Positions 24,175 to 62,073 of a stretch of 64,000 nt of DNA are shown here, in pieces. A program made the position numbers and the translations under genes. Under the pieces are notes generated by a model. The model ran no database searches. It had not been told where the DNA came from and saw only the letters and a list, made by a program, of their open reading frames with translations. The DNA lies in NCBI GenBank assembly GCA_001513145.1, contig LFSP01000032.1:84088-148087 (forward strand). Direction: 5' to 3'. This DNA comes from Clostridia bacterium DTU025. GTDB taxonomy: Bacteria; Bacillota; DTU025. Within the stretch, counting starts at the first letter, position 1, and each line of letters begins with the position of its first letter.

Positions 24175-24510
24175 GAAAGACAACAGCGCCCGCCCTCTGC
24201 CTTGCCTGCAGAGGACGAGCGCCTGATCCCGTGGTACCACCTCAGTTCGCCGGCAGCTCACGCCGCCGACCTCTTCGAGTACGGCGCAACGGCACCAGCT
24301 GAACTGCGGCCTTGCGCGTATACTCTATCACTGTAACGGGTGAACCCCGTCTCAGCCTACAAGGTGCGGCATCCGAACACGCGCCGGCGCCGACACCCTT
24401 CGGTAAGCGGCTACCAGGATGTATTCAACTGCGGCAGCCTGCCCCCTCACACCGCCCGGGGGCTCTCTGCAAGGACCGTTCGCAGCCTACTTCTTCCCGG
24501 TCATCGCCTT
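24175..24510 (-). ncRNA. T-box leader, UAC (Tyr) specifier
   Basis: Minus strand: AGAAGTA K-turn region, CAGAGAGCC...GGTGTGAGG, GAA-TAC-ATCC specifier (24421-24423), GGTGGTACCACGG antiterminator, then terminator hairpin 24186-24222. Confidence 0.88.
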
Positions 24511-24548
24511 TGTTTCGTATGAAATTGCAGTGGATGGCTATTGCCCGT

Positions 24549-25349: not shown

Positions 25350-25426
25350 TGGAGCCCGCGACCGGAATCGAACCGGTGACCTCATCCTTACCATGGATGC
25401 GCTGCTACCTACTGAGCTACGCGGGC
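25350..25426 (-). tRNA. tRNA-Thr(GGT), CCA encoded
   Basis: GCCCGCGTAGCTCAG...CATCC ATGGTAA GGATG...GGTTCGATTCC...CGCGGGCTCCA. Confidence 0.96.
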
Positions 25427-25443
25427 AGGGCCCTTACGGGCCA

Positions 25444-25524
<81 letters not shown>

Positions 25525-25543
25525 ACGAAACTTATCAAACAGC

Positions 25544-25619
25544 TGGAGCGGGAAACGGGACTCGAACCCGCGACATTCAGCTTGGAAGGCTGACGCTCTA
25601 CCACCTGAGCTATTCCCGC
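25544..25619 (-). tRNA. tRNA-Gly(TCC)
   Basis: GCGGGAATAGCTCAG...CTTCCAA anticodon loop...TCCCGCTCCA. Confidence 0.96.
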
Positions 25620-25644
25620 CCGACTCAGGACTTACCAAGTAGGA

Positions 25645-25730
<86 letters not shown>

Positions 25731-25747
25731 ACGAAAACACCGCAAAC

Positions 25748-25822
25748 TGGAGCCGACGATGGGATTCGAACCCGCAACCTGCTGATTACAAGTCAGCCGC
25801 TCTACCATTGAGCTACGTCGGC
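25748..25822 (-). tRNA. tRNA-Thr(TGT)
   Basis: GCCGACGTAGCTCAA...CTTGTAA loop...CGTCGGCTCCA. Confidence 0.96.
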
Positions 25823-30426: not shown

Positions 30427-30690
30427 AAATGAAATGCCCGCCCCGAAAGCCATCTCGGGACGGGCCCAAATCACGTGCCCGCGGTTCCACCCGTATTGGC
30501 GCGATCAGCGCCCACTCGTTGGCCTGATAACGGTGGCAGCCGCCTGACATACTGCGCCCCGGCAGGGGCCGGCGCGGTTCAGCCAGGTGCTCAGAGGGGG
30601 TTTTCAGCGGCCGGCGCCCGGCGCGCTCACACCACGTGCGCGCCGTCTCTGAAGGGCCATGCTTAGCTTACTCGTCCTCGTCATCGCGAT
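30427..30690 (-). ncRNA. T-box leader, ACC (Thr) specifier
   Basis: Minus strand: CAGAGACGGC...GGTGTGAGC, GAAA-ACC-CCC (30599-30601), GGGTGGAACCGCGG, hairpin 30436-30465 and TTTCATTT. Confidence 0.88.
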
Positions 30691-30697
30691 TACTGCT

Positions 30698-31873: not shown

Positions 31874-31950
31874 TGGTGGGATGCAGTGGAGTCGAACCAC
31901 TGACCTCAACGATGTCAACGTTGCGCTCTAACCAACTGAGCTAGCACCCC
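31874..31950 (-). tRNA. tRNA-Val(GAC)
   Basis: GGGGTGCTAGCTCAG...TTGACAT loop...GCATCCCACCA. Confidence 0.95.
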
Positions 31951-31968
31951 GAAACCCTGGTGAAACCT

Positions 31969-32043
31969 TGGAGGCGACACCCGGATTCGAACCGGGGAAT
32001 CGCGGTTTTGCAGACCGCTGCCTTACCACTTGGCTATGTCGCC
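31969..32043 (-). tRNA. tRNA-Cys(GCA)
   Basis: GGCGACATAGCCAAG...CTGCAAA loop...TGTCGCCTCCA. Confidence 0.95.
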
Positions 32044-32068
32044 GCCGCACCCCCGCAGAGTGAAAAAA

Positions 32069-32143
32069 TGGAGCGGAAGACGGGATTCGAACCCGCGACC
32101 CTCGCCTTGGCAAGGCGATGCTCTACCACTGAGCCACTTCCGC
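32069..32143 (-). tRNA. tRNA-Gly(GCC)
   Basis: GCGGAAGTGGCTCAG...TTGCCAA loop...CTTCCGCTCCA. Confidence 0.95.
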
Positions 32144-32162
32144 AAACCATAAACCTTCACGA

Positions 32163-32238
32163 TGGTGCCGAGGGGCAGAATCGAACTGCCGACACGGGGA
32201 TTTTCAGTCCCCTGCTCTACCAACTGAGCTACCTCGGC
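32163..32238 (-). tRNA. tRNA-Phe(GAA)
   Basis: GCCGAGGTAGCTCAG...CTGAAAA loop...CCTCGGCACCA. Confidence 0.95.
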
Positions 32239-32253
32239 GCAATTGAAAAATAG

Positions 32254-32329
32254 TGGCGGAAGCGACGGGAGTCGAACCCGCGATCTCCTGCGTGACAGGC
32301 AGGCATGTTAACCACTACACCACGCCTCC
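32254..32329 (-). tRNA. tRNA-Asp(GTC)
   Basis: GGAGGCGTGGTGTAGTGG...CTGTCAC loop...GCCA. Confidence 0.95.
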
Positions 32330-32352
32330 GCACACATATAAACCTGTCAAGG

Positions 32353-32427
32353 TGGTGGGCGAAACAGGGCTCGAACCTGTGACCCCCTGCGTGTAAGGCA
32401 GGTGCTCTCCCGCTGAGCTATTCGCCC
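32353..32427 (-). tRNA. tRNA-Val(TAC)
   Basis: GGGCGAATAGCTCAG...CTTACAC loop...TTCGCCCACCA. Confidence 0.95.
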
Positions 32428-59220: not shown

Positions 59221-59415
59221 TTACGCAAACCACCTGGGCCAAAAGGCCGCCAGCACGATTATCGCCAGCAGGATCAGGAGCATGCCCCACGATCCGAAGC
59301 CCCCACACGGATGGCAGGGATCACAAGGATCCACTGGACGGCAGGGCGGAGGGCAAGGTGGAGGGCAAGGCGGAAAACAACCCGCGCCCGCGTTGATGGT
59401 CTCACCAGTCGTCAT
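59221..59415 (-). CDS. Small Pro/Cys-rich protein with C-terminal TM helix (sporulation-like)
   Basis: MTTGETINAGAGCFPPCPPPCPPPCRPVDPCDPCHPCGGFGSWGMLLILLAIIVLAAFWPRWFA; GGAGG RBS upstream of ATG 59413-59415. Confidence 0.7.
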   Translation of the reverse strand: MTTGETINAGAGCFPPCPPPCPPPCRPVDPCDPCHPCGGFGSWGMLLILLAIIVLAAFWPRWFA

Positions 59416-59440
59416 CGATGAATCCTCCTTCAAATTCTAC

Positions 59441-59548
59441 TTACCAGGGGAACCAGAATACCGCTATAACGATAATCGCCAAGAGGATCAGGGCGAGGCT
59501 CCAAGAGAACCCTCCCTTGAAACCACGGCCAAAGAAGACACCGTCCAC
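59441..59548 (-). CDS. 35-aa YjcZ-like sporulation peptide (missed by ORF track)
   Basis: My translation (GTG start after GGGAGGAG): MDGVFFGRGFKGGFSWSLALILLAIIVIAVFWFPW*. Confidence 0.65.
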   Translation of the reverse strand: MDGVFFGRGFKGGFSWSLALILLAIIVIAVFWFPW

Positions 59549-59657
59549 CGCGATCGCTCCTCCCATGCTTGATTTGGTCGCGATTCCGTCGCGAGTAAGG
59601 TCGCGGAACCGTAGTTGTGGTTATCTTTCGTTCATCGGCCCCGCCTGTGCGCTGATA

Positions 59658-59686
59658 TATAGTATGAGGGCACTGGCAGTTGTGTC
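59658..59686 (-). promoter_or_regulatory. Sigma-K-like sporulation promoter candidate
   Basis: Minus strand GAC-N17-CATACTATA, matching the Bacillus sigma-K pattern AC-N16/17-CATAnnnTA. Confidence 0.45.
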
Positions 59687-59858
59687 AGTTGTGTTGCACG
59701 CAGTTCGTCGAAGCTACCTGCGGACCACTCCCCCGAAGCTGGTGGCCGCCACACACCCCGCCTGCCGAGGCACCACCACCGATCCCCCCTCGTCCCCCGG
59801 CCGGCAGCGCGACACATGCCGACAGCGTGCTGGCGCGAGCGGCGCGGTTCCCGTGAAC

Positions 59859-60037
59859 GTGTCGGTGCCACCAACACGATCACGTCGAACATGTCGGCGG
59901 CACTGACACGATCCCGATGACCATGTCGGTGACACCGACACAGTGACAACGAACATGTCGGTCAGACGAACACTATCGCGATGAATGTGCTGCCGACACC
60001 GACACGATTGCACCGAACGTGTCGGTCTGGGCGGCAT
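59859..60037. repeat. 32-bp-period dyad array, block 1 (6 units)
   Basis: Unit starts 59859, 59891, 59923, 59955, 59987, 60019; consensus RTGTCGGTnnnACCGACAC plus 13-bp linker. Confidence 0.9.
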
Positions 60038-60166
60038 GGTCGCCATCCCCCTCTCACTGGAGACTGGACCGTGCGCGTCGTCCTGTGCAGGAGTCGCAGC
60101 TACACGCGGCGCAGACCGCCGCGCGCCCTGGCGTCTTCGATCGGCAGTGTAGCCTATGCCGAGAAC

Positions 60167-60281
60167 GTGTCGGTAGCGCCAACACAAGAGCTGCGACCGT
60201 GTCGGTAGTACCAGCACGGTCGCGCCGAATCTGTCGGCGGCACCGACACAATCCCCTTGAGCGTGTCGCTCCGACCGACAC
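60167..60281. repeat. 32-bp-period dyad array, block 2 (4 units)
   Basis: Unit starts 60167, 60199, 60231, 60263; same consensus. Confidence 0.9.
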
Positions 60282-60344
60282 AGCCGCTATGCGAGCCGGC
60301 TGAGGCGAACCCGGCCCAGATCCCTTGATAACTCAACAATCGCA

Positions 60345-60370
60345 AAGGCCCCCACTTCAGTGGGGGCCTT
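60345..60370 (-). terminator. Terminator of fhs
   Basis: Minus strand AAGGCCCCCAC-TGAA-GTGGGGGCCTT then TGCGATTGTT. Confidence 0.8.
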
Positions 60371-60402: not shown

Positions 60403-62073
60403 CTAGAACAGCCCGACTATGCGCCCATCCTCGTTGATGTCGACAGCCTCGGCCGCTGGCACCTTGGGCAGCCCGGGCATGGTCATGATCTCCCCGGTCA
60501 GGCACACCAGGAAGCCGGCGCCTGCCGACACCCTGACCTCCCTGATGGTGAGCTCCCAGCCCTTGGGGGCGCCCTTGAGGTCCGGGTTGTCTGACAAGGA
60601 GTGCTGCGTCTTCGCCATGCATATCGGCAGCTTGTCGAAGCCCAGCTTGGTCAGGCGGGCGATATCCTTGTCGGCGGAGGCGGTGTAAACGACGCCGTCT
60701 GCACCGTAGATCTCCCTGGCCAGGATCTCGATCTTCTCCTTGATGGGCAGCGCCGGATCGTATATCGGAGCGAAGTTGTTCTCGTCGTGCTCCAGCGCAG
60801 CCAGGATCTCCTTGGCGAGCTCGATGCCGCCCTCGCCGCCCTTGGCCACAACCTCCGAGATAGCGCTGCGCACGCCCATGGCATCGCAGTGCTTCTTCAC
60901 CAGGGCAAGCTCCTCGGGCTCGTCGGTGGGGAACCTGTTGATGGCCACCACGATGGGCAAGCCGAACTTCTTCAGGTTCTCGATGTGTTTGTCGAGGTTC
61001 GCGCATCCGCGCTCCAAGGCCTCGAGGTTGGTCTCAGCCACCTTGGCCTTTGGCACGCCGCCGTGCATGTTCAGGGCCCGCACCGACGCCACCAGCACCG
61101 CGACGTCGGGCTTGATGCCGGTGAACCGATGCACGATGTCGAAGAACTTCTCAGCGCCCAGGTCTGCAGCGAAACCGCCCTCGGTGACCACGTAGTCCGC
61201 AAGGCCCAGGGCCATGCGCGTGGCGATCACCGAGTTGTTGCCGTGCGCGATGTTGGCGAACGGACCGCCGTGCACGAACGCCGGCTGCCCCTCCAGGGTC
61301 TGCACCAGGTTGGGCTTGAGGGCGTCCTTGAGGAGCACCGCCATGGCACCCACGGCCTTGAGGTCAGCCGCGGTCACCGGCTTGCCATCTCTGGTGTAGG
61401 CCACCACGAGGCGGCCCAGCCGCTCCTTGAGGTCGGTCATGCCTGTGGCCAAGCAGAGCACGGCCATGACCTCCGACGCCACGCTGATGTCGAAGCCGGT
61501 CTCCCTGGGAACGCCGTTGGCGGTTCCACCCAGGCCGCACACGATGTAACGAAGCTGGCGGTCGTTGATGTCCATCACACGGCGCCACACGACCCTGCGG
61601 GTGTCGATGCCCAGCTCGTTGCCTTGCTGGATGTGATTGTCCACCATCGCCGCAAGCAGGTTGTGCGCTGCGGTGACGGCGTGGATATCGCCGGTGAAGT
61701 GCAGGTTGATGTCCTCCATGGGGACGACCTGCGAGTATCCGCCGCCGGCCGCGCCGCCCTTCACCCCGAAGGTGGGCCCCAAAGACGGCTCCCTCAGCGC
61801 CACGATGACCTTCTTGCCCAGCTTGCCCAGAGCCTGCGTGATCCCCACGGCCGTGCACGTCTTCCCCTCACCTGCGGGAGTAGCCGTGATGGCGGTAGTG
61901 TAGATCAGCTTACCCCTGGGTCCGGCAGGCAGCCTATTGAGCACCTTCAGCGAGACCTTAGCCTTGTTCCTGCCGTAGAACTCGATCTCGTCCTCGGCCA
62001 GACCAGCATCGCGCGCCACGTCGGCAATTGGGCGCAGTTTCGTCGACTGCGCGATCTCGATATCGCTCAACAT
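60403..62073 (-). CDS. fhs: Formate--tetrahydrofolate ligase
   Basis: [57 protein letters not shown]. Confidence 0.98.

Follow-up and report, generated by a model that had tools for sequence, protein, structure and literature searches.

A helically phased 32-bp dyad array in a Clostridia genome, likely an orphan binding site of a wHTH-nuclease protein with its own repeat family

The window analysed here is a 64,000-nucleotide stretch from Clostridia bacterium DTU025, and the array under study lies in its intergenic stretch between fhs and a small YjcZ-like gene. The features of this region are as follows:

59221-59433, minus strand: small YjcZ-like gene, one flank of the intergenic stretch
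59859-60037, no strand assigned: block 1, six dyad units, each with a 19-bp inner dyad (starts 59859, 59891, 59923, 59955, 59987 and 60019; step exactly 32 bp)
60038-60166, no strand assigned: inter-block gap
60096-60108, plus strand: possible core motif GCAGCTACACGCG, within the gap
60167-60281, no strand assigned: block 2, four dyad units with the same exact 32-bp step (starts 60167, 60199, 60231 and 60263)
60345-60370, no strand assigned: perfect 12-bp inverted repeat between the array and fhs, a neighbour outside the array and likely the fhs terminator
60403-62073, minus strand: fhs, the other flank of the intergenic stretch

The array thus comprises ten 32-bp units in two blocks of six and four. 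A preliminary description of the region had claimed ten units at these starts, with 32-bp intervals and no indels within the blocks, and this held fully. The lag-32 self-identity over 59641-60340 gave a z of 9.8, compared with a maximum of 3.8 in the control (the maximum over lags 20-60 in 300 shuffles), and the array was recovered independently by Tandem Repeats Finder. As also claimed, the period is not a multiple of 3, which excludes a coding repeat. The proposed unit of a 19-bp dyad plus a 13-bp semi-conserved linker required refinement: unit columns 20-23 and 29-32 extend the dyad symmetry outward into most of the "linker", giving a wider dyad of approximately GAAC-RTGTCGGT-NNN-ACCGACAY-GRTC that covers 27 of the 32 bp. 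The faint in-phase copy proposed at 59827 was not supported, because its 4 of 8 arm pairs are reached by 10% of random window positions.

Several other features of the window were observed. A second short YjcZ-like reading frame (59441-59566, minus strand, about 41 aa, read by eye) lies upstream of the gene at 59221-59433. Two T-box leaders are present on the minus strand (24208-24513 and 30453-30693), with tRNA gene clusters close to them (25353-25822 and 31877-32427).

A genome-wide search of this genome (G000) revealed one other array of the same dyad, starting at G000:C46:115326 and referred to here as array 2. Its 12 units form one block of eight and one of four, and its gap measures 157 bp from start to start, versus 148 bp in the window array. 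The units of the two arrays agree at 65% within the dyad but only 41% within the linker, and therefore it is the dyad, not the whole unit, that has been kept. A double-dyad pattern gave 24 matches in this genome (13 forward and 11 reverse), none in 40 relatives and none in a reversed-pattern control. With a three-unit sequence model, such arrays were found in 2 of 399 genomes sampled from the phylum, namely G000 and G002, the latter representing a sister genus in the same family; all the genomes compared are drafts. The preliminary description had named the absence of the array from every relative and of any other genomic copy as grounds for refutation, and this was not the case, since copies were found in both. 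A single weak match to the model in a distant genome (G098) was rejected as a simple 18-bp repeat of another kind. No exact-pattern match to the array was found in viral contigs, and no description of such arrays was found in the open-access literature searched.

In G002, about 48 blastn matches, partial copies included, were obtained to an element composed of three dyads, a gap and three further dyads. The neighbours of these copies are diverse ordinary genes, some copies share flanks in subsets, and some differ in length by exactly one 32-bp unit. The motif GCAGCTACACGCG in the gap of the window array has similar counterparts in two other gaps: GCAGCTAGACGCG in that of the G002 elements and CCTGCTAGACGCG in that of array 2. 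This core motif, GCTAGACGCG, had shuffle p values of 0.02 and 0.04 and no convincing match in other dyad families; it is possibly a real feature, being the sole sequence common to the gaps of G000 and G002, and the support for it is suggestive and marginal. As a separate observation, an RHS-repeat reading frame ends ahead of one G002 element at the G002:C6 contig end (L060 / L086), and the two are separated by a small ORF (MATRHLGNDQLKAYL...) that precedes other copies too.

The dispersal of these copies raises the possibility of a MITE-like non-autonomous element moved by an unrelated transposase, in which case the adjacency of some arrays to the protein genes described below would be incidental. 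The roughly 48 G002 matches, their diverse ordinary neighbour genes and the flanks common to subsets speak for this explanation. Against it, neither target duplication nor terminal inverted repeat was evident by eye at the limited number of G002 copies with unique flanks that were inspected. The private dyads upstream of homologs of a single protein family (six cases in two bacterial families) and the gap geometry, conserved where the gap sequence is not, argue against it as well, and we consider it unlikely.

Array 2 lies directly upstream of a gene encoding the protein that we regard as the likely binding partner of these dyads:

G000:C46:114337-115200, minus strand: wHTH-nuclease gene (C46), 289 residues

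The N-terminus of the C46 protein is a MarR/TrmB-like winged helix; among its homologs, TrmB was recognised in 10 of 14 by a Pfam scan, and MarR structures were matched by both sequence and fold. The C-terminal domain has a confident AlphaFold model (mean pLDDT 86 and 88) with a predicted alpha-beta, PD-(D/E)XK-like layout and an invariant D-x10-E-x-N/Q; D175, E186, H192, D212 and K215 are invariant in 14 homologs. Foldseek returned weak and consistent matches to R2 endonuclease, TnsA, PvuRts1I and Vsr, with E values of 0.06 or worse and none significant alone, so that catalytic activity can only be inferred. DNA cleavage is a possible part of the protein's job, as its conserved nuclease-like residues suggest. 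The Pfam scan of the 14 homologs listed winged-helix families and a weak DUF2726, with no Y1 transposase among them. PADLOC matches were restricted to the winged-helix parts. Three weak matches were found in phages, to the nuclease domain only (one is annotated as an intron-encoded nuclease), and none in plasmids. Homologs were found in 20 genomes in a sample of 300 from the phylum. A sigma-70-like promoter match (TTGACA-17-TACCAT) lies between array 2 and the C46 gene. The window array has no wHTH-nuclease gene beside it, and no promoter-like match was found inside it.

An array upstream of the protein gene is not confined to C46. In G002, an array of that genome's dyad likewise lies immediately upstream of the best homolog (49%), and the chance that one of about 48 copies would adjoin that gene is roughly estimated at 1-2%, assuming about 3,000 intergenic regions. 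Dyads of different sequence were found upstream of further homologs: CAGTACGn5CGTACTG at G002:C68 (two dyads 33 bp apart, then 167 bp, then two more), GAGGAGCn12GCTCCTC at 32 bp at G000:C32, and three CTGGACGG dyads at 32 bp at G002:C49. In another bacterial family, to which both G132 and G235 belong, the upstream regions carry TGGTCCCCnGGGGACCA in pairs or triplets spaced by exactly 32 bp (G132) and GTGCTnGn5CnAGCAC at 32 bp (G235). Overall, six homologs from this one protein family, spread over two bacterial families, have private dyads upstream. Many homologs have no visible array, for example those in G001, G003, G004, G007 and G008.

Four of these motifs (G132, G235, G002:C68 and G000:C32), each picked by eye from the scan of a single gene's upstream region, were used as double-dyad patterns, with at most three mismatches allowed, to search whole genomes. 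The results showed 240, 7, 27 and 30 forward-strand matches in the own genomes of the G132, G235, G002 and G000 motifs, respectively; recurrence of the G002:C68 and G000:C32 dyads in their own genomes had been predicted before searching. In the other genomes tested, none of the four was found, except for 3 matches in G187, a congener of G132, and the reversed-pattern controls gave 0 matches. Because the dyads recur almost solely in their own genome, each protein appears to own a private, dispersed dyad family. With cleaner controls, the upstream scan alone is only moderately significant, and the strength of the case lies in the private genome-wide copies together with the helical phasing.

The individual dyad families show further organisation. 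GAGGAGCn12GCTCCTC forms a second dyad family in this genome (L281, L282 and L207; G000:C6, C9, C13, C24, C33, C35, C36, C40, C44, C46 and C51), in 32-bp pairs often repeated every 240-242 bp, and is likely cognate to the G000:C32 paralog. G132 (L254, L260 and L261) contains very large TGGTCC arrays with higher-order repeats, in which many pairs stand 221 bp apart and subgroups are separated by 41, 52 or 84 bp. The region upstream of another homolog, G187:C27 (L236), carries many GTGAYGTRCRTCAC-like palindromes. Upstream of two more distant homologs, G211:C140 and G059:C10 (L250 and L237), GCATCGGATGC dyads stand at 34-35 bp, and their subfamily may use a longer step than 32-33 bp.

The spacing between successive dyads or blocks was examined for helical phasing. 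Distances other than 32 or 33 bp, which include 41, 52, 62, 84, 103, 126, 148, 157, 167, 187, 208 and 209 bp, cluster at whole multiples of 10.5 bp; in the window array, the 148 bp from the start of the last block-1 unit to that of the first block-2 unit correspond to 14.1 helical turns. For 39 unique distances, R was 0.72 (p about 1e-9), with the caveat that some of them are interrelated through added 32-bp steps; a conservative set of 13 distances gave an R of 0.89 (p = 4e-5). A scan of periods from 8 to 14 peaked at 10.52 bp, which is the helical repeat of B-DNA. As the block distances are multiples of 10.5 bp, the dyads share one DNA face, and this same-face phasing across eight array families or loci supports the earlier claim to that effect. 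In addition, three CAGTACG loci have distances of 33-167/168-33 with apparently unrelated gap sequences, indicating that geometry is kept rather than sequence. The kept geometry fits both blocks being held in one complex on one DNA face; we think this likely, the complex itself being inferred.

It might be argued that the repeats specify a structured RNA of repeated hairpins, as the dyads could form stems of about 8 bp. However, in the 22 units of the two arrays, 123 of 176 arm pairs are Watson-Crick, compared with a shuffle mean of 127, and arm pairing against shuffles gave z values of -1.4, -3.0 and -2.0 in G132, G235 and G002, respectively. The arms therefore do not behave as covarying partners in any of four dyad families, which favours a duplex-DNA binding site over a hairpin. 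The 10.5-bp phasing is likewise a property of duplex DNA, and an Rfam scan of the array gave no match, so little room remains for this explanation. Accordingly, the preliminary description was right that substitutions often fall in one arm only, and its claim that no RNA hairpin is maintained is supported.

Another possibility is that the arrays are ordinary transcription-factor operators, with the protein acting as a repressor or activator, the orphan arrays forming its regulon and the nuclease-like domain serving in sensing or oligomerisation. This explanation remains possible: the protein contains a MarR/TrmB-like winged helix, array 2 lies upstream of the sigma-70-like promoter of the C46 gene, and cooperative regulators typically show same-face phasing. 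On the other hand, the six to twelve dyads at each site, and the 240 double-dyad matches in one genome, are far above what is usual for operators, the window array, flanked by the end of fhs and by small YjcZ-like genes, has no promoter-like match inside it, and the putative catalytic residues are invariant. The arrays could also serve in chromosome architecture or segregation, as sites bound in the manner of parS or matS, and the wHTH-nuclease-like protein would then have a structural role. Their multi-dyad, helically phased and bipartite geometry and their dispersal over many contigs would agree with this. Nevertheless, related genomes range from 2 arrays to dozens, and the dyads are genome-private, unlike conserved segregation sites, which makes this reading unlikely.

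We therefore prefer to read the window array as an orphan array bound by the C46 wHTH-nuclease protein, within a repeat-protein pairing like that of REPIN/RAYT, and assign this a probability of about 0.72. The arrays, the phasing, the lack of arm covariation, the adjacency of genes and arrays and the private dispersed copies are directly shown, while binding, cooperativity, autoregulation, any cleavage or mobility, and the way in which the arrays spread, are inferred from sequence alone. What counts against this reading is the absence of binding data, the many homologs without arrays, the lack of a wHTH-nuclease gene beside the window array, the moderate significance of the upstream scan alone, the weak nuclease fold matches and the marginal gap motif of G000 and G002. 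In the proposed working, one wHTH-nuclease dimer would occupy each dyad, and neighbouring dimers would be packed on the same DNA face at intervals of three helical turns. A joint wrap or loop would hold the two blocks, whose separation is a whole number of turns, in one nucleoprotein complex. At the gene-linked copy (array 2), the protein would also control the promoter of its own gene, and the window copy would be an orphan site served in trans by the C46 protein. Related proteins would each have their own dyad sequence under a common spacing rule. With own dyads and dispersed arrays, the whole would thus behave like a repeat family with a dedicated protein, as in REPIN/RAYT, and DNA cleavage might be used in the spread or upkeep of the arrays.

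The preliminary description had offered two alternatives, an array serving an unknown regulator as operator or scaffold and a clustered repeat family of this lineage. The former is supported by the candidate binding-protein gene beside arrays, in the absence of binding data, and the latter by the additional copies that G000 and one sister genus contain; the two are likely to be true together. Beyond that description, the candidate is probably a wHTH-nuclease fusion, its binding and nuclease activity being inferred. A bolder reading, against which the odds lean, is that this is an undescribed protein-repeat partnership, in which each wHTH-PD(D/E)XK protein builds a one-faced nucleoprotein structure on private dyad arrays stepped in whole helical turns, and in which these proteins maintain or propagate the arrays over the chromosome by targeted cleavage and repair, as a duplex-DNA and independently arisen counterpart of REPIN/RAYT. 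These results connect an intergenic repeat that was hard to explain with one particular protein family and provide a rule for finding such pairs in unannotated genomes: a private dyad, a 32-33 bp step and whole turns between blocks. Should the proteins do no more than bind, the arrays would be operators, or chromosome-architecture sites, of unusual size and constrained geometry.

Several known systems resemble the present one in part. BIME and BOX-type elements are modular repeats scattered through intergenic regions and built of tandem palindromic subunits that vary in number. The number of units in the present arrays likewise varies, in steps of exactly 32 bp, but these arrays lack hairpin covariation, are helically phased and are associated with a wHTH-nuclease gene. 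Cooperative multi-operator arrays and the plasmid centromere parC, which has two repeat blocks around a promoter, share the regularly spaced sites on one DNA face and the two blocks; in contrast, the present arrays are chromosomally dispersed in many copies and have a nuclease-like binding candidate, and no ParM/ParR-type genes were seen beside the two G000 arrays. The protein resembles PD-(D/E)XK nucleases (Vsr, TnsA, R2 endonuclease, PvuRts1I and DUF2726) in its predicted alpha-beta layout and D-x10-E-x-N/Q, whereas the similarity is weak, the domain order is opposite to that of TnsA and no partner transposase was seen.

The closest likeness is to REPIN/RAYT (TnpA-REP, "REPtron"), in which a different REPIN cluster lies beside each RAYT (PMC3116915) and the enzymes and repeats have co-evolved (PMC8266576). 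Here, too, a palindrome family specific to each protein gene lies beside it and is dispersed in the same genome, paralogs differ in their palindrome, and protein and repeat appear to co-diversify. However, the present protein combines a wHTH with a PD-(D/E)XK-like domain instead of a Y1/HUH transposase, no GTAG/CGTC-type tag was recognised in the arrays, and the dyads are not kept as hairpins, forming instead duplex arrays with 32-33 bp steps and whole helical turns. The system thus works like REPIN/RAYT but fails membership, having neither the Y1/HUH transposase nor a maintained hairpin. If its proteins do cut DNA, it would add a second and independent case of bacteria hosting repeats together with an enzyme dedicated to them, and the question of persistence raised by REPIN/RAYT could therefore be asked there too.
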